The notes below the pieces were generated by a model that was not told the DNA's origin, searched no databases, and saw nothing but the letters and a program-made list of their open reading frames with translations. DNA of 48,962 nucleotides, taken from positions 1 to 48,962 of the forward strand of contig CACXUM010000033.1 of assembly GCA_902770835.1 (NCBI GenBank), read 5' to 3'. Positions 5,555 through 40,767 of the stretch are shown one piece after another. The position numbers and the translations under genes are program-made. This DNA comes from an uncultured Bacteroidia bacterium. GTDB lineage: Bacteria; Bacteroidota; Bacteroidia; Bacteroidales; F082. How positions within the stretch are numbered: the stretch's first letter is position 1; every line of letters starts with the position of its first letter.

Positions 5555-7123
5555 ATGATTCAACCCGACCTGATACCCACAACCAACACATTGTCAAGAC
5601 TTAACGATACCTTACCGCAACTCAGGGAGGCTTTTCCCCGACCTGACCTCATCAACACAGTGGCGGAGCAGGCGGCCAGCGGCAGTTCGTCAAAAGACAT
5701 CGGCCTGACCATTGCCATCATCGGTTTGCTCATTTTCACGGCTCACCTTTTCAGCGAAATCTTCAGCCGCAAGCGCATCCCCGATGTGCTGTTTCTCATC
5801 ATCATCGGCTTGCTCATCGGCCCCGTTTTCCATTGGGTTTCGCCCGAAAGTCTTGGAAACGCGGGCAGTCTATTTTCGGGCATCACGTTGGTCACCATTC
5901 TTTTTGAAAGCGGTACACAACTGAGATTCAGTGCCTTAAAAGGCTCGTTTAGAGGAGCATTAAAACTCACCGCCTTGAATTTCGTGTTCTCCGCCATCGC
6001 CGTTTGGCTGGTGGGATGGCTGCTTTTGGACATCGACCCCATCATTAGCATGATGCTTGGATGCGTGCTGGGCGGCACGGCCTCTGCCGTGGTGATCCCC
6101 ATTGTGAGGCAGATGCGCATGTCGGAGAAACCCGCCACCATGCTCATCCTTGAAGCCGCCATCGGCAATGTGTTCAGCATCGTCCTCGCCTTGGCCCTGA
6201 TGCAAGCCATCCAGTCGCGACACGTTGTGTTTGGGGCCATCCTCGGCGACATCTTCTCCTCGTTTATCCTCGCCACGGTGATGGGTCTGATTGGCGCCAT
6301 CTTTTGGGCTTTGATTCTCGACCAAGTTCGCAACATCAAATACTCCATCCTCACGACACCCGCCTTCGTCTTCATCATCTACGGACTCAACGAATGGATG
6401 GGCTTCAGCGGTGCCATCGCCGCCTTGGCTTTCGGCATCGGCATGGCCAACATCGACAGCATCTACAACACTTGGCTCAAGAAATTCATCAAGAAAGTGC
6501 CGGTCAACCTGAACGAAACCGAGCGTTCCTTGTTCTCGGAACTGGTGCTGCTGCTCAAGACCTTTTTCTTTATTTATGTGGGCATTTCCATCCAACTCAA
6601 CCAATGGCATCCATTCGTTATCGGACTGGGAATCAGTGTATTGCTTTTCATCATCCGCATTCCAGCCGTCCGTTTTGCCATCTCGAAGAAAGAAGGCATC
6701 CCCGAGAAGGAAATCGTTTTCATGTCGGCCCTCAACCCCAAGGGACTGACCGCCGCCGTACTTGCCACGCAAGCCCTCATTTACATTCCCGACGGAGAAA
6801 TCGCCCTGTTTGTAAGGAACATCGTCTTTTCCGTCATCCTCTCCACCATTGTCATCAATTCCATCCTTATTCCCTTGATTGACAAGGAGAAAGGACTATA
6901 TCGCCTTTATCTGAAAATGTTGAGTTTCAACCAAAAGATGAAAAACATGGTGAACAAGACCAAGCATGAAGGCGAAGAATGGCACCACAAACATTCGAAG
7001 GCACATAATCTTGTCGGAGAAATGTTTCATTCTGAGGTGATTACGGAAATCATCGAACATCAGGACAAACCCGGAGCCGTAATCAACAAAGCTGAATCGG
7101 GAAACATGGACGTAGCAGACTAA
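5555..7123 (+). CDS. CPA-type cation:proton antiporter family protein
   Basis: 522 aa, inner membrane. After a 45-residue N-terminal extension come about 12 hydrophobic segments (the first near 49-66, the last ending near 450), then a charged His/Lys/Glu-rich cytoplasmic tail of roughly 80 residues. Family features include the RIPDVLFLIIIGLLIGP start of the transport core, FESGTQL at 117-123, the GGTASAVVIPIV stretch near 173-184, and NPKGLTAAVLATQ late in the core. In CPA1 relatives the segment after the LILE motif carries an ion-binding Asp (TDVL or NDP). Here it reads LEAAIGNVFSIV (199-210), with Asn205 where Asp is usual, so exchange activity or ion coupling may differ. NhaP-like sodium or potassium exchange is the usual role, but the ion is not predictable. 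A porin lies upstream and a macro-domain-like gene 13 bases downstream. Confidence 0.85.
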   Translation: MIQPDLIPTTNTLSRLNDTLPQLREAFPRPDLINTVAEQAASGSSSKDIGLTIAIIGLLIFTAHLFSEIFSRKRIPDVLFLIIIGLLIGPVFHWVSPESLGNAGSLFSGITLVTILFESGTQLRFSALKGSFRGALKLTALNFVFSAIAVWLVGWLLLDIDPIISMMLGCVLGGTASAVVIPIVRQMRMSEKPATMLILEAAIGNVFSIVLALALMQAIQSRHVVFGAILGDIFSSFILATVMGLIGAIFWALILDQVRNIKYSILTTPAFVFIIYGLNEWMGFSGAIAALAFGIGMANIDSIYNTWLKKFIKKVPVNLNETERSLFSELVLLLKTFFFIYVGISIQLNQWHPFVIGLGISVLLFIIRIPAVRFAISKKEGIPEKEIVFMSALNPKGLTAAVLATQALIYIPDGEIALFVRNIVFSVILSTIVINSILIPLIDKEKGLYRLYLKMLSFNQKMKNMVNKTKHEGEEWHHKHSKAHNLVGEMFHSEVITEIIEHQDKPGAVINKAESGNMDVAD

Positions 7124-35224: not shown

Positions 35225-36395
35225 TTAGCAATTAAAGTCCAAAACCGTTTCAAGGTAGTGTCTTTCAATGCCGTAGCGAGCCTTCAAATCGGCAATCTGC
35301 TGCAAAATTTTCGGGTCTTTCGCGTTTTTCGATGTTTTTCTCCCAACGAGCAACACATTCTTCGGCGTGTGTTCCATCTCAATGAACTCCATGATTTGCG
35401 TCTTGTAGCCGAAATATTCCAAAATCAGTGCGCGGATGGTGTCGGTAACCATAACAGCCTGACGTTCAAGGAAAATACCATAGCGCGTGATGGCATCGTA
35501 ACGACCCGAGCGTTCCATCTCCTGCCGGATTTGCTTGTGGCAGCACGGGGCGCAAACAATCAACTCCGCGCCTGCCTTAATGCCCGATGCGATAGCGTCG
35601 TCGGTGGCCGTGTTACAAGCGTGAAGTGCAATCAAAACGTCTAATTTTTCAGGATGATACGCTTCGATGCTACTCTCCACGAACTCCAAGCCTTTCAGAT
35701 GGTTAGCCTTGATGATTTCGTTAATTTTCAACACCAAATCAGGACGGATTTCCACGCCTTTGATGTCCACATCAAGATTCAGCCGTTGGGTCAGCAGTTC
35801 ATAGAGGGCAAAAGTCAAATACCCCTTCCCTGCCCCCATGTCGGCGATATGAACGGTGCCATCGAACTTCATCGGCTTGATGAGGCTTTCCACGATTTCG
35901 GCATACTTGTAAATCTGTTTGAACTTGTGCTGCATATCGGCGGTAATCTTGCCCTCGCGCGTGGTCAAGCCCAACTGGTACCACCACGGATTAGCCGGAT
36001 TGATAAGACGGGCTTTCTGCTTGTCGTGTTCCAAATTCTGCTCGCGACATTCCTGCACTTTCTTAGTTTGAATCGTGGCCTTGCCCTTGCTTGAAACGAG
36101 CAATGTGACATCCTCGCTCACGGTGAAAAGCACAGCGTTCAAGAAGTGGTTCGGAATCATTTCACGCAGAATGTCAAGCATTTGCGTGGCATCATAGTTC
36201 TTCACCTCGTCACGACGCTCATAGTGATAGGTGAAGGCGAAAAGGCGCTTCCCCCTTGATAAGCACTGGCTTCACATAGATATTGCGCAGCTCGTCACGT
36301 TTCGATGCGGGCTTGCTCAAGGTCATCTTCACCATAGTGCTTTGCTCGACGGCATCGCTGACGCGGCTCAAAAACTTTTCAAGGCTTTCCGACAT
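35225..36395 (-). pseudogene. SAM-dependent methyltransferase, one-base frameshift
   Basis: The intact frame 35225-36205 encodes about 326 residues with a class I methyltransferase core: HIADMGAGKGYLTFALYELL (SAM loop) and LIALHACNTATDDAIASGI. The later CAPCCHKQIRQEM resembles the Methyltransf_32 family. The true N-terminus lies upstream: MSESLEKFLSRVSDAVEQS from the ATG at 36395, then KRDELRNIYVKPVLIKG. After this the frame shifts at a run of five G (minus strand; CCCCC at 36251-36255). Reading the run as four G joins it seamlessly to KRLFAFTYHYERRDEVKNYD. So the gene is either a fresh frameshift, a slippage-controlled gene, or a sequencing error. The methylated substrate is unknown; RNA or a small molecule are both possible. 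Confidence 0.85.
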
Positions 36396-36423
36396 GGTTG
36401 ATTATTGAGGCAAGAGGAAAGAC

Positions 36424-37032
36424 TTATTTCGGCAACTCGACGGCAGGCCAGCCATAGTCTTGCACCATCTTGACAGGAAGATTGTTCTTCTTCACATAGT
36501 CGGCGATGAATTGCAGTCTGATGCTCTCGCGCTTTTCCTGGTTGCTGTTGATTTCATGGAAGGCCTCATACTGGTCGCCAAAAATCTTCTTGGCGCTCTC
36601 AAGGTTGCCTGCACCATCCTCCACGACCTCGAAGTTGGTCACTTCCATGCCCTTGTCGGTCTTCTTCAGGTGCATCAAGCCGGGATGGTTGCCACCCGAA
36701 ACGGTCTTCAGCGTGTCGCCCGAAACATTGTAGTTGAACACCCAAAAGTCGCCCCAAACCTTGACATCCTGCAAATCACCATTGTCAGTGCTAATGACAA
36801 AAGGAGAAGAAATACTGTATTGACCCTCAGCATATTGTTTGCCGATGACATTCTCCAGATAGTTGGCAACAGCCGCGTCGCATGCTTTAGAATCAAACAC
36901 ATTAACAACTTGGTTGTTTTCCACTGTAGCTTCTTTAGGTTGTTCTTTAGCGTTTTTGCTGCCACAACCAACCAAAACCGTGCTGCAGATCAGGATGGCA
37001 GCCAGCATCCACATTTTCAATGTCTTTTTCAT
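36424..37032 (-). CDS. Lipoprotein of unknown function
   Basis: 202 aa. Lipoprotein signal MKKTLKMWMLAAILICSTVLVGC with the Cys at residue 23. The mature domain (about 45-200) is mixed alpha/beta: CDAAVANYLENVIGKQY, then a beta region with VKVWGDFWVFNYNVSGDTLKTVSGGNHPG, then a helical FGDQYEAFHEINS stretch. I do not recognise a family. It looks like a single globular periplasmic domain. It has a -7 motif at 37066-37074 and is divergent from the ThiD-AraC/pdxST operon, so it may share control from the same intergenic region. Confidence 0.78.
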   Translation of the reverse strand: MKKTLKMWMLAAILICSTVLVGCGSKNAKEQPKEATVENNQVVNVFDSKACDAAVANYLENVIGKQYAEGQYSISSPFVISTDNGDLQDVKVWGDFWVFNYNVSGDTLKTVSGGNHPGLMHLKKTDKGMEVTNFEVVEDGAGNLESAKKIFGDQYEAFHEINSNQEKRESIRLQFIADYVKKNNLPVKMVQDYGWPAVELPK

Positions 37033-37065
37033 TTTTCTTGATTTCTTTAAAAACTTATTGAGACT

Positions 37066-37074
37066 GCAAAAATA
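37066..37074 (-). promoter_or_regulatory. -7 promoter motif for lipoprotein gene
   Basis: Reads TAttTTTGC on the minus strand, exact consensus, 33 bases before the ATG at 37032. Confidence 0.68.
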
Positions 37075-37103
37075 CGACCTTTTTTCATACTTGAAAATCC
37101 ATT

Positions 37104-37134
37104 TTTTCCAAAAACCGCATTTTGTTTTCCAAAA
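37104..37134 (+). promoter_or_regulatory. Direct repeats, candidate AraC-type operator
   Basis: TTTTCCAAAA occurs at 37104-37113 and again at 37125-37134, exactly 21 bp apart, two turns of the helix on one face. AraC-family regulators often bind direct half-sites at this spacing. The pair lies between the divergent promoters of the lipoprotein gene and the ThiD-AraC/pdxST operon, about 35 bases upstream of the possible operon -7 motif (TTtaTTTGC near 37171). That the fusion protein binds here is inference. Confidence 0.5.
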
Positions 37135-37194
37135 TCGGAATGCACCTTATAATAATTGCGGAAACTTCTGTTTATTTGCAACAAAATCACTGCA

Positions 37195-38136
37195 ATGAAA
37201 ACGGTTTTAAGCATTACAGGCTCCGATGGCACAGGCGGTTCGGGCGTACAAGCCGACATCCGAGCCATCACTCTCTTAGGGGCACAAGCCGTGACCGCTA
37301 TCACGAGCATCACCGTGCAAAGCACACTTGGCATCCAGTCTTTCTTCGACCTGCCAGCCAACGTAGTAAGTGGACAGATTGAAGCCATCTTCAACGATAT
37401 GGACCCACAGATTGTGAAAATCGGCATGTTGCGCCGCATCGACGTGGTGGAATCCGTTGCTGAAGTGCTGAAGAAATACCATCCCAAGCACGTCATTCTC
37501 GACACGGTGGCACATTCCTCGTCGGGCGACAAGCTGATGACGCCAGAAGTGATGGCGACCATAAAGAAGAGACTTCTGCCCTTATGCACGTTGGTCATAA
37601 CGCGTCCCGACGACAACATTTTCAGCCTCTCCGACTACGCATCGGTGAAGCGACTGACCATCGATGGACGACAAGGACACGGTCATGGCAACCTGCTTTC
37701 CTCAGCCATCGCCGTCATGCTCAGCCGTGGCGAAAACATGCAAACTGCCATCGACGATGCGAAGAGATACCTCGGACAGCTGATCCCTGAACACATCGAA
37801 CAGACGGGGCGGGCAGCTTCGCTCTACAACAATTTCCTCGACAGTTTGGAGCGCTTCTTCATGTTGTACAAAGACGTGTCGTTCTACGCCGAGCAGCTGA
37901 ACGTCAGCAGCCGTTATCTGGCCCAGGTGACCAAACGGTTCGCTGAAAAAACGCCCAAGACGCTCATCGACGAAAGAATCGCCAACGAGATAGAACGACA
38001 GATGCGGACCTCCGACAAGACCGTGCAAGAAATCGCCATCGCTTTGGGTTTCAGCTCACAAGCGCAACTGTCGAGGTTCTTCCGCAAAATGCGCAACCAG
38101 TCGCCGTCGCAATTCAGAAAAACACTAAACACTTAA
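37195..38136 (+). CDS. ThiD-like kinase domain fused to AraC-type DNA-binding domain
   Basis: 313 aa from the ATG at 37195, which gives the normal ThiD start MKTVLSITGSDGTGGSGVQAD. Residues 1-200 match the ThiD/PdxK ribokinase-like fold: QADIRA, VQSTLGIQS, VKIGMLRR, LDTVAHSSSGDKLM. Residues 226-313 are an AraC-type double helix-turn-helix (YAEQLNVSSRYLAQVTKRF and VQEIAIALGFSSQAQLSRFF). The kinase half looks dead: the anion-hole/catalytic motif that reads GTGC (or GAGD) in active enzymes is GHGN at 163-166, so the catalytic Cys/Asp is Asn166. The roughly 45-50 residues expected after LVITRP (137) are missing. pdxS starts 3 bases after the stop. I infer a regulator that binds a B6 vitamer or related pyrimidine and controls pdxST. 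Confidence 0.9.
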   Translation: MKTVLSITGSDGTGGSGVQADIRAITLLGAQAVTAITSITVQSTLGIQSFFDLPANVVSGQIEAIFNDMDPQIVKIGMLRRIDVVESVAEVLKKYHPKHVILDTVAHSSSGDKLMTPEVMATIKKRLLPLCTLVITRPDDNIFSLSDYASVKRLTIDGRQGHGHGNLLSSAIAVMLSRGENMQTAIDDAKRYLGQLIPEHIEQTGRAASLYNNFLDSLERFFMLYKDVSFYAEQLNVSSRYLAQVTKRFAEKTPKTLIDERIANEIERQMRTSDKTVQEIAIALGFSSQAQLSRFFRKMRNQSPSQFRKTLNT

Positions 38137-38139
38137 AAC

Positions 38140-39015
38140 ATGGATAACGAAAGACAAAATCTCAACCGACAACTCGCTCAAATGCTAAAAGGCGGCGTCA
38201 TCATGGACGTGACCACCCCTGAACAAGCCCGCATCGCCGAAGAAGCCGGCGCCTGCGCCGTGATGGCTTTGGAACGCATACCCGCCGACATCCGTGCGGC
38301 CGGTGGCGTGTCGCGCATGAGCGACCCAAAGATGATCCGCGGCATCCAAGAAGCCGTCTCCATCCCCGTCATGGCGAAATGCCGCATCGGCCATATCGCC
38401 GAGGCACAAATCCTCCAAGCCATCGAAATCGACTACATCGACGAAAGTGAAGTGCTCTCACCCGCCGACGACATCTACCACATCGACAAGACCCAATTCC
38501 AAGTGCCGTTCGTTTGCGGTGCCAGAGACCTTGGCGAAGCCCTGAGGCGCATCGCCGAGGGTGCCACCATGATCCGCACCAAAGGCGAACCCGGCACGGG
38601 CGACATCGTGCAAGCCGTGCGTCACATGCGCTGCATGCAAAGCGAGATTCGCCGTGTGGTTGCCATGCGCGACGACGAACTATTTGAAGCCGCCAAACAG
38701 CTCCAGGTGCCTTACGGCCTGCTCGCTTTCGTACATGCCAACGGCAAACTGCCCGTAGTGAACTTCGCCGCCGGTGGTGTGGCCACTCCCGCCGACGCCG
38801 CACTGATGATGCAATTAGGCGCCGAAGGCGTCTTTGTCGGCAGCGGCATCTTCAAAAGTGGTAACCCTGCCAAACGCGCAGCTGCCATCGTGAAGGCCGT
38901 CACCAACTACACCGATGCTCACATGTTGGCCGAACTGTCAGAAGACCTCGGCGAGGCCATGGTAGGCATCAACGAACAAGAGATCGAACTGTTGATGGCC
39001 GAGAGAGGAAAATAA
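38140..39015 (+). CDS. pdxS: Pyridoxal 5'-phosphate synthase subunit PdxS
   Basis: 291 aa, cytoplasmic; builds PLP from ribose 5-phosphate, glyceraldehyde 3-phosphate and ammonia in the R5P-dependent B6 pathway. TIM barrel with the catalytic residues Asp23 (GGVIMDV), Lys80 ([10 protein letters not shown]) and Lys148 ([11 protein letters not shown]) in place. The [29 protein letters not shown] phosphate-binding region lies near the end. Near-full conservation and normal length indicate a working enzyme. It takes ammonia from PdxT, encoded 2 bases downstream. It is translated close behind the ThiD-AraC fusion (3-base gap), so all three form one operon. Confidence 0.97.
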
Positions 39016-39017
39016 CG

Positions 39018-39587
39018 ATGAAAATAGGCGTTTTCGCATTACAAGGAGCATTCGCAGAGCACGTGCGGATGCTCCATGACCTTGGTGCAGAGGCCTTCGA
39101 GATACACAGTCTCTCCGACTGGGAAAAAGAGAAAGACGGCATCATCTTGCCTGGAGGCGAAAGCACTACGCAAGTCAAACTGTTGCACGACTTGGGTATT
39201 TTCGAGCCTTTGAAAAATGAGATAAGGAACGGATTACCCGTATTCGGCACCTGTGCAGGAATGATACTTTTGGCCCAAAACACGACGAACGACGACCGCG
39301 AGCATCTTGCCACAATGGGCATCAGCGTGCGCCGCAACGCTTACGGGCGCCAGTTGGGAAGTTTTCACACCTTTGGCACCATGGAAGGCATCGGGGAAGA
39401 CATCCCCATGACCTTCATAAGGGCGCCTTACATAGAGAAGGTGCTTTCACCCGAATGTGAGGTATTGGCAAAAATTGATGGTAACATCGTTGCCGCACGT
39501 CAAGGCAAGCAACTCGTCACAGCCTTCCACCCCGAGCTGGATGCCGACTTTCGAGTGCATGAGTATTTCCTGAAAATGTGCAGATGA
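39018..39587 (+). CDS. pdxT: Pyridoxal 5'-phosphate synthase glutaminase subunit PdxT
   Basis: 189 aa, class I glutamine amidotransferase that feeds ammonia to PdxS in a 12+12 complex. The triad is visible: Cys79 in VFGTCAGMILLA, and His171 and Glu173 in TAFHPELD. The GGEST substrate loop at 46-50 and VRRNAYGRQLGSF at 105-117 are also conserved. Length is normal (about 190-200 aa). Last gene of the operon; it converges with the sialidase gene across a 19-base gap without a visible terminator. Confidence 0.96.
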   Translation: MKIGVFALQGAFAEHVRMLHDLGAEAFEIHSLSDWEKEKDGIILPGGESTTQVKLLHDLGIFEPLKNEIRNGLPVFGTCAGMILLAQNTTNDDREHLATMGISVRRNAYGRQLGSFHTFGTMEGIGEDIPMTFIRAPYIEKVLSPECEVLAKIDGNIVAARQGKQLVTAFHPELDADFRVHEYFLKMCR

Positions 39588-39606
39588 CAGTGATGGTTTG
39601 AGAGAA

Positions 39607-40767
39607 TTACTTCTCCAACCATTCCAAGCCGAAGTTGTAGAACACCATGGAATAACCCAAAGTGTCGCCATCAGACTCTTCCACATACATGCCGATAGAG
39701 TTGTCGGGCAGGATGCAGAGCGAGGAATAGGCAGCATCGTAAGGCACTACGATTTTATGCACAGGCCAGGTCATGCCTTCGTCGTAGCTGGCATACAAGG
39801 TGACGTCTTTGCGGCCTTCGGCGCAAGGCAAGGAATGGAGCAGGATGTTCTTTTCAGCGCCCTCATTCACAGACGAATAACGTATGATATCGCCATTGCA
39901 AGCTGTAGCCACAAGGTCGGACCAAGCGGAGGTTTCGGGCCGCCAAGTGGTGCCACCGTCCTCTGAAATGTTGTACCAACGCTCGCCTTCATGGCGGATG
40001 CTCATCAAGATGCGGCCATCGGCCAATTCCACTACCTTGGCTTCGTCGCCGCGCTGGGAAGCGCGGCCAGATATCTGCCATGTCTCACCATTGTCATCGG
40101 AATAAACGGCATAGTTGCATGCGGCCCATTCCTCGGTGTCGCGCACGGCGAGGACGAACATGATGCGCCCCGTGGAGGTCAGCAGGCCGTTGCCCGATGC
40201 GAAAAAGGCCGACCACCATGTGCGGCTCACCTCGTTTTGGCACTTCGCGCCATAAAGTTCATCAGTGATGTCTTTCGGTTCAGTCCAAGTCTGGCCGTTG
40301 TCGTAACTCCTTGCAATATAGGTGCGTTGCGGGTTTTCGGGCCGACCTTGCCAAAAGCCGGTTCCGCCCACGAAAGCCGCCAAGAGGCCGCCTTCGTCGT
40401 GGGTGTGTACCAAGGCGCAGTCGCCAAAGCCCTTCCCCACCCCTTGGCCTTCAACAAGGGTGTAAGGCTCGCTCCAAGTGCGACCGCCGTCGGTGCTTCT
40501 ATTAATAAGGATGTCGATGTCTTCGGGCAGGTCGTCGATGTTGTGTTTCCGCTTGTCGGTGGCCACCACAAGCGAGCCATCCTTCGCCGTAATGATGGCG
40601 GGAATGCGGTAATTCCTTGAATCGTAGTCGCCCGGACGGTAAAGCACCGTGCGCAGGCGGATGGAGTCGCTTTGCGGTTCTTCTTGTTGTTTTAGTTGGT
40701 TGTTGTTGCCGCATGAGGCCAGCACAAAGCCCAATGCCATTACGAAAAGCGAAAGTGGGTATTTCAT
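39607..40767 (-). CDS. Sialidase-like (neuraminidase family) lipoprotein
   Basis: 386 aa. Lipoprotein signal MKYPLSLFVMALGFVLASCGN. A six-bladed sialidase propeller is indicated by NYRIPAII (the Arg-Ile-Pro motif with the first catalytic-pocket Arg) at about 53-60. Asp-boxes of the SxDxGxTW type follow: STDGGRTW, SYDNGQTW, YSDDNGETW, EDGGTTW and SYDEGMTW. IRHEGERW may supply a second pocket Arg. A late YVEESDGDTLGYSMVFYNFGLEWL resembles the end of GH33 domains. It should release sialic acid from glycans at the cell surface. No nan uptake or catabolism genes are in the window, so free sialic acid use is not shown. Promoter motif at 40786-40794. Confidence 0.88.
   Translation of the reverse strand: MKYPLSLFVMALGFVLASCGNNNQLKQQEEPQSDSIRLRTVLYRPGDYDSRNYRIPAIITAKDGSLVVATDKRKHNIDDLPEDIDILINRSTDGGRTWSEPYTLVEGQGVGKGFGDCALVHTHDEGGLLAAFVGGTGFWQGRPENPQRTYIARSYDNGQTWTEPKDITDELYGAKCQNEVSRTWWSAFFASGNGLLTSTGRIMFVLAVRDTEEWAACNYAVYSDDNGETWQISGRASQRGDEAKVVELADGRILMSIRHEGERWYNISEDGGTTWRPETSAWSDLVATACNGDIIRYSSVNEGAEKNILLHSLPCAEGRKDVTLYASYDEGMTWPVHKIVVPYDAAYSSLCILPDNSIGMYVEESDGDTLGYSMVFYNFGLEWLEK

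Follow-up and report, generated by a model that had tools for sequence, protein, structure and literature searches.

Introduction

PdxR proteins are one-component regulators of pdxST in which a former enzyme domain serves as the PLP sensor, as set out in the accessible text of PMC5320631, and they offer the closest comparison for the system described here. PdxR joins a GntR-type helix-turn-helix (HTH) to an aminotransferase fold, whereas the protein we describe joins an AraC-type HTH to an apparently dead ThiD fold; both would act as one-component pdxST regulators, with the former enzyme domain sensing PLP in PdxR and being the proposed sensor in the fusion. MocR-type factors were recorded in 11 of the 38 Bacteroidetes genomes studied, Bacteroidaceae included (PMC5320631, accessible text), which shows that the phylum has further B6 regulators. 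The open-access literature that we searched, including the accessible parts of PMC5320631, PMC6593275 and PMC9997740 (in its accessible part, the last states that regulators are not covered), does not describe a ThiD-AraC fusion of this kind; subscription papers, supplements and RegPrecise fell outside that search.

The kinase half of the fusion has its fold, homology and substrate-side motifs in common with the ThiD/ThiD2 (PdxK) kinases (PF08543, TIGR00097). It differs from them in the loss of both the catalytic Cys and the TPN Asn in all 96 fusions compared, in the added HTH and, in the type found here, in a shortened core. AraC/XylS activators have the HTH_18 domain in common with the fusion, whose predicted operator, two direct repeats next to the promoter at a spacing of 21-22 bp, is also of their kind; their usual sensor half is a cupin-like domain, whereas that of the fusion would be a pseudokinase. 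ThiR of archaea, an HTH joined to a ThiN-like domain, likewise uses a vitamin-pathway enzyme domain as sensor, as is proposed for the fusion, and differs in domain, vitamin and HTH. In its accessible text, PMC12029414 describes ThiR simply as regulating thiamine synthesis and transport.

We consider it likely that the fusion regulates pdxST as a one-component transcription factor of the AraC type, sensing B6 through a dead ThiD domain and acting as an activator. Judged by gene order and conserved sites, pdxST as its target is strongly supported; we infer the ligand (PLP or another B6 vitamer) and the sign of control.

Results

A ThiD-like/AraC fusion precedes pdxS and pdxT

The window, by which we mean the whole 48,962-nucleotide stretch analysed, contains the following features.

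37195..38136, + strand: ThiD-like/AraC fusion, the proposed pdxST regulator; 313 aa, intact, with its ATG at 37195 and its stop codon ending at 38136
37195..37809, + strand: ThiD-like domain, aa 1-205; apparently catalytically dead, with about 45 residues fewer than ThiD
37690..37692, + strand: codon for Asn166 at the catalytic Cys position; 80 of 81 short-type fusions have Asn there, whereas all 37 stand-alone ThiDs have Cys
37885..38121, + strand: AraC-type helix-turn-helix domain, aa 231-309 (PF12833, 70.6 bits, cut-off 33.6)
38140..39015, + strand: pdxS, PLP synthase lyase subunit (TIGR00343, 491.4 bits, cut-off 438.45)
39018..39587, + strand: pdxT, PLP synthase glutaminase subunit (TIGR03800, 219.4 bits, cut-off 105.55)
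37109..37148, + strand: predicted operator, two direct repeats starting CAAAA (37109 and 37130; 21 bp apart), a family-wide motif
37171..37178, + strand: -7-like promoter box TTTATTTG, at a fixed spacing in 61 of 65 upstreams; 22 nt past the operator here, 21 in most relatives

A preliminary description of this DNA had reported a 313-aa ThiD/PdxK-like and AraC fusion followed by pdxS after 3 bp and by pdxT after a further 2 bp, and the open reading frames, Pfam and NCBIfam all agree with that arrangement. The only significant Pfam matches of the fusion are Phos_pyr_kin (PF08543, 9e-47, best stretch aa 11-135) and the AraC-type HTH_18 (PF12833, 1e-19, aa 231-309); it lacks the GntR HTH and aminotransferase-like domain of PdxR/MocR proteins. 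PdxS and PdxT of the window both pass the NCBIfam equivalog cut-offs. On the kinase half the ThiD model TIGR00097 scores higher than PdxK-type models, reaching 154.4 bits for the fusion, under its cut-off of 204.95. Behind pdxT, an open reading frame on the reverse strand (39607-40767) contains Asp-box-like repeats (SxDxGxTW) and is sialidase-like by eye.

The fusion family is linked to pdxS

In many Bacteroidales of the gut and the mouth, the ThiD-like/AraC fusion stands in front of the genes for B6 synthesis. Among 173 genomes of the same family, fusions were found in 13, members of the window's genus with its own genome included, and each has pdxS downstream. A contig scan gave 303 candidates, and the best 80, all with both halves, were studied; they come from Prevotella, Segatella, Hoylesella, Xylanibacter and other Bacteroidales. 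Within these best 80, pdxS lies on the same strand at a gap of at most 250 bp in 69 loci (median gap 12; where a gap is negative, an ORF start is over-long), and the remaining 11 have pdxS further off on the same strand (4), on the opposite strand (2), lost to a contig end (3) or absent from the locus (2). These counts, and those of box spacing below, leave out L004 and L005. The survey of ThiD-AraC architectures next to pdxST that the preliminary description had proposed thus uncovers a widespread family, which has linkage to pdxST in common with PdxR/MocR proteins, and on these counts a chance neighbourhood with pdxS was dropped as an explanation.

Three further genomes, from families f42, f19 and f111, have the fusion and pdxS in divergent orientation (L113, L114 and L115). 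Across 393 Bacteroidales genomes, pdxS was found in 8 of the 10 with a fusion versus 11 of the 383 without (Fisher p=2.5e-10, relatedness not corrected); mostly the five best first-look candidates were scored in that search, so fusions may be missed, and the ten were read off the match table. The two fusion genomes in which pdxS was not found, G471 (the source of L040) and G533, speak against a pdxST regulator; both have PdxJ and encode a response-regulator-like protein behind the fusion. A strict search (E<=1e-55) of a small phylum sample of 395 genomes returned the window's own fusion alone, the other matches covering the kinase part only.

Some unusual arrangements were also seen. Orphan fusions in two PdxJ genomes without pdxS (L173, L174) keep the operator at the fusion's own promoter and are followed by a response-regulator-like gene, accompanied in one genome by a HATPase domain. 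Genome G190 encodes a second, strongly diverged fusion of 304 aa (L176:3273-4187), which sits on the longest branch of the tree and keeps HGxxN by eye, with no pdxS in the 8 kb read. In L099 a separate AraC-type gene on the reverse strand (5882-6907) shares a few bases with the fusion's 3' end.

A direct-repeat element leads into the pdx promoter

The regions upstream of the fusions have a 40-bp element in common, with an EM log-likelihood of 1118 versus 162-168 in three dinucleotide-shuffled sets (81 sequences, left from 96 upstreams after removal by k-mer likeness). Scores above the 99% level of the shuffles were reached in-sample by 67 of 98 upstreams, two duplicate records among the 67. 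Self-correlation of the motif matrix peaks at shifts of 21 and 22, marking two direct repeats, and T...TTTG follows exactly 21 nt beyond the site in 55 of 65 cases and at 21-23 nt in 61 of 65 (shuffles, about 2%). The Bacteroidetes promoter consensus is TTTG-N19-TAnnTTTG. The conserved element is the likely operator, a pair of direct repeats 21-22 bp apart leading into a Bacteroidetes-type promoter. By conservation, it resembles the direct-repeat operators near the -35/-33 region of AraC/XylS proteins. The copy in the window is weaker than most (score 21.6, against up to 50.5), a point against the regulator reading.

Of the 81 short-type loci, the type to which the window's fusion belongs, 63 carry the site ahead of the fusion; 12 of the remaining 18 carry it ahead of pdxS. 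In eight of these 12 the site falls inside the fusion-pdxS gap (L037, L039, L043, L065, L066, L076, L089, L092); in L036 and L069 it precedes a pdxS on the other strand more than 2 kb from the fusion, and in L109 and L038 (S. copri) a pdxS more than 3 kb and more than 4 kb off, respectively. Site scores are modest, from 5.8 to 14.2, in L037, L038, L039, L043 and L089, and L099 has two copies, one before the fusion and one before pdxS. In L038, L069, L076, L099 and L109 the site overlaps an over-long pdxS ORF start and was read as upstream, these ORFs spanning 155 (partial) or 312-357 aa against 291 for the PdxS of the window. Re-checking placed the site before the fusion in L052 and L068, whose ORF starts had been misplaced. 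Four of the 81 loci (L042, L049, L062, L064), three of them cut by a contig end, have no site, which counts against the regulator reading, as does the passing of the motif threshold by only 2 of 15 upstreams of the long type (about 356-375 aa). Where a long-type fusion and pdxS point the same way, inspection by eye suggests repeats resembling TATCGGAAT, at a spacing of about 21 bp, in the gap before pdxS.

The predicted operator follows pdxS, not the fusion alone. The suggestion in the preliminary description that the fusion controls PLP synthesis gains support from the pdxS linkage and from the placement of this putative site before pdxS in split operons. It is unlikely, if worth keeping in mind, that the same regulator with the same ligand represses pdxST: in its favour, the second half-site reaches the -33 region; against it, an AraC-type HTH and a fixed position upstream of -33 favour activation.

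A second, near-identical operator-like stretch was noted about 1.8 kb upstream of the fusion at L033:3182-3221 (match in G067, E=6.6e-8), between CTP-synthase-like and FMN-reductase-like ORFs by eye and without an obvious gene on the same strand; it looks like a duplicated segment.

The best genomic operator matches lie at the pdx locus

Whole genomes were searched with a profile (R1) of 51 sites, 50 plus that of the window, from which near copies and low scores had been removed (54), followed by L076, L087, L097 and L112. In each of the ten genomes searched, the top match fell at the pdx locus; 8 of them are in the training set or are near copies of its members. Outside the training set, the genome-best match lies just upstream of pdxS in Xylanibacter brevis (E=2.4e-11), where fusion and pdxS are on separate contigs of 290,795 and 274,455 bases, and in Segatella copri iAQ1173 (E=1.4e-5). 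The best match in the window's genome covers 37109-37180 (E=1e-5, next 0.0117), the window site being itself a training row. Many of the lower matches listed cover the promoter part only; a full-length runner-up, found in Segatella buccae (E=1.8e-4), precedes what by eye resembles a tRNA gene, has no clear repeats and was set aside as a promoter match. A regulon of one operon is the simplest reading.

No match was found at E<=1 at the pdxS loci L143, L144, L146, L149 and L151, from 5 of the 11 genomes with pdxS and no fusion, nor at E<=1e-3 in three members of the genus in which neither fusion nor pdxS was detected (G094, G105, G109). The pdx site was missed at E<=1e-3 in two genomes with divergent long-type fusions (G190, G322), which speaks against the regulator reading.

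Gene content speaks for B6 over thiamine as the signal

Searches of the window's genome detected neither thiC nor PdxJ, and no ThiD standing alone or GntR protein of MocR length. Among 16 genomes searched for thiC, 8 gave no match, and the fusion is present in five of those 8 (G000, G064, G067, G072 and G282). In G000, G064 and G067 the fusion is the only PF08543 protein at E<=1e-10 and PdxJ was not found, leaving pdxST as the only detected de novo PLP route; at 86% completeness the absences in G000 are weak evidence, and G067 is 99% complete. The fusion is also the sole PF08543 protein found in G077 and G053 among the 21 genomes examined.

The failure to detect thiC and ThiD genes speaks for B6 over thiamine as the signal, judging by gene content. 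The fusion might still control pdxST and sense HMP or a different intermediate of the thiamine pathway, in which case B6 synthesis would depend on thiamine status. The better score of its kinase half with the ThiD model than with PdxK-type models would suit such a sensor, as would its nearest fold, which is that of ThiD, and the presence of thiD and thiC near the fusion in G054 and G066. Against it stand the fusion genomes without detected thiC and stand-alone ThiD, which make HMP the less likely ligand, and the 36000-40000 region, where a search for a thiamine riboswitch or other RNA gave 0 Rfam matches and hence no TPP riboswitch. We rate this HMP reading as quite improbable; the thiD and thiC genes near the fusion-pdxS locus in G054 and G066 would nevertheless fit a thiamine link and so count against the preferred reading. 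One ThiD-family kinase accepts both pyridoxal and HMP, according to the accessible text of PMC7093009.

In G054 and G066 one contig each (G054:C43, G066:C41) brings together a long-type fusion, thiC and a stand-alone thiD, all three within about 10 kb of one another.

The kinase half is a predicted dead ThiD domain

Residues were counted in 81 short-type and 15 long-type fusions and in 37 ThiDs drawn from the same searches, leaving out L004 and L005 (duplicate records of L033 and L034) and the locus copies L118, L119, L028, L031 and L032; L110 lacks its N-terminus, giving 80 of 81 in some columns, and set A1 is without L006. In an alignment with 1jxh, the ThiD of Salmonella, Asn166 of the GHGN motif in the window's fusion occupies the position of the catalytic Cys, as the preliminary description had read it. 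The core shortening that it placed after residue 137, of about 45-50 residues, is borne out as well: the stretch bounded by aligned residues 137 and 156 counts 18 residues in the fusion and 63 in the 1jxh chain, about 45 fewer.

The catalytic position holds Asn in 80 and Gly in 1 of the short-type fusions, Gly in 15 of 15 long-type fusions and Cys in 37 of 37 stand-alone ThiDs, so Cys is kept in 0 of 96 fusions (Asn 80, Gly 16). The TPN Asn is likewise kept in 0 of 96 fusions versus 37 of 37 ThiDs. GHGN as such, whose conservation the preliminary description had left to be scored, is not a family motif; what is conserved is HGxxN in 80 of 81 short-type and HG(V/I)xG in 15 of 15 long-type proteins. 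Homologues with an active motif, a full core and no link to pdxST, a case that would have told against the proposal, did not turn up among these fusions: none of the 96 has the Cys, and the long type has near-full core length but Gly. The kinase half appears catalytically dead throughout the set, on the evidence of its residues, in line with the inactivated kinase first proposed.

Much of the substrate side remains. Gly9-Ser10-Asp11 and Gln19-Ala20-Asp21 are kept in 80 of 80 short-type rows with a residue there, Gln42, Lys75, Gly77, His162 and Gly163 in 81 of 81, and His162-Gly163 in 96 of 96 fusions; in the long type the pocket Gln42 is present in 10 of 15 and gone in 5. The AlphaFold2 model of the window's fusion, a calculation also foreseen in the preliminary description, has a mean pLDDT of 90.2 and a pTM of 0.74 and predicts a ribokinase-like ThiD fold. 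Foldseek with this model is led by the ThiD structures 8g1h, 7r8y and 4jjp (E 5e-17 to 1e-16), and pyridoxal kinases such as 4c5l (the S. aureus enzyme with pyridoxal) rank below them. In a tree of kinase halves, one branch (support 100/99) parts 37 fusions from 37 ThiDs.

These data bear on what the kinase half is for. It could be a dimerisation domain only, or respond to another signal (a pathway substrate or the PdxST proteins), with pdxST still regulated. ThiD-family proteins are dimers, and the divergence of the half and the loss of the pocket Gln in 5 of 15 long-type fusions would agree with such a role; the retention of the GSD, Gln19-Ala-Asp21, Gln42 and Lys75 columns in 80 or 81 of 81 short-type fusions exceeds what a dimer surface would need, and we hold this role to be very unlikely. 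A trigger enzyme, able to regulate and still to phosphorylate B6 or HMP, would fit the 5 of 21 genomes where no other PF08543 protein was seen for salvage and the universal His162-Gly163, and we give it hardly any credence, the catalytic Cys and TPN Asn both being lost in 96 of 96 and the window protein being about 45 core residues short; the reading of the fusion as an active kinase was dropped on the same loss of catalytic residues.

The cassette may have moved between genera

In the tree, the fusion of the window and its relative L033 are short type and group with Prevotellaceae, and six other members of the window's genus are long type. PdxS of the window is 79-81% identical to that of ten long-type genus members, 93-94% to that of L033 and L034 and 84-92% to that of the remaining scanned loci. 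This grouping and these identities would be most simply explained by movement of the cassette from one genus to another.

Discussion

The preferred mechanism, a B6-responsive activator of pdxST, can be set out as follows. The N-terminal half probably goes back to an enzyme resembling ThiD or pyridoxal kinase; its catalytic residues are gone, and it appears, from the predicted model and its residues, to have retained the fold and much of the substrate-side sequence. Its dead pocket may bind a B6 vitamer, most likely PLP or pyridoxal. The HTH half would bind both direct repeats, at the site marked by conservation, which lies just upstream of the pdx promoter's -33 region and extends into it, and the fixed distance from operator to -7 box suggests activation of the kind seen in class II AraC-family proteins. 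The PLP level would thereby be coupled to expression of pdxST, and of the fusion itself where the operon is shared.

The fusion would join the enzyme-derived one-component vitamin regulators. Its independence from PdxR, put forward in the preliminary description, agrees with the search of 25 genomes, fusion genomes among them, for MocR-type factors of PdxR size: none held a GntR protein (E<=1e-8) with an open frame of more than 353 aa, and such a regulator was dropped as the explanation in fusion genomes. Taking a wider view, we lean towards the idea that an AraC-type activator sensing PLP or pyridoxal through a dead ThiD/pyridoxal-kinase domain arose once in Bacteroidales, independently of PdxR, that it has an operator to itself and controls perhaps a single operon, and that it spread among genera with pdxST.

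How PLP synthase is controlled in Bacteroidales is not told in the accessible literature that we examined. Databases may list the genes for the fusion as HMP kinases or as plain AraC regulators. The present analysis supplies a protein, a target operon and an operator with base positions, for which species such as Segatella copri, Prevotella denticola and Xylanibacter brevis could serve as test organisms, and it offers a clear example of a kinase fold that has probably become a transcriptional sensor.
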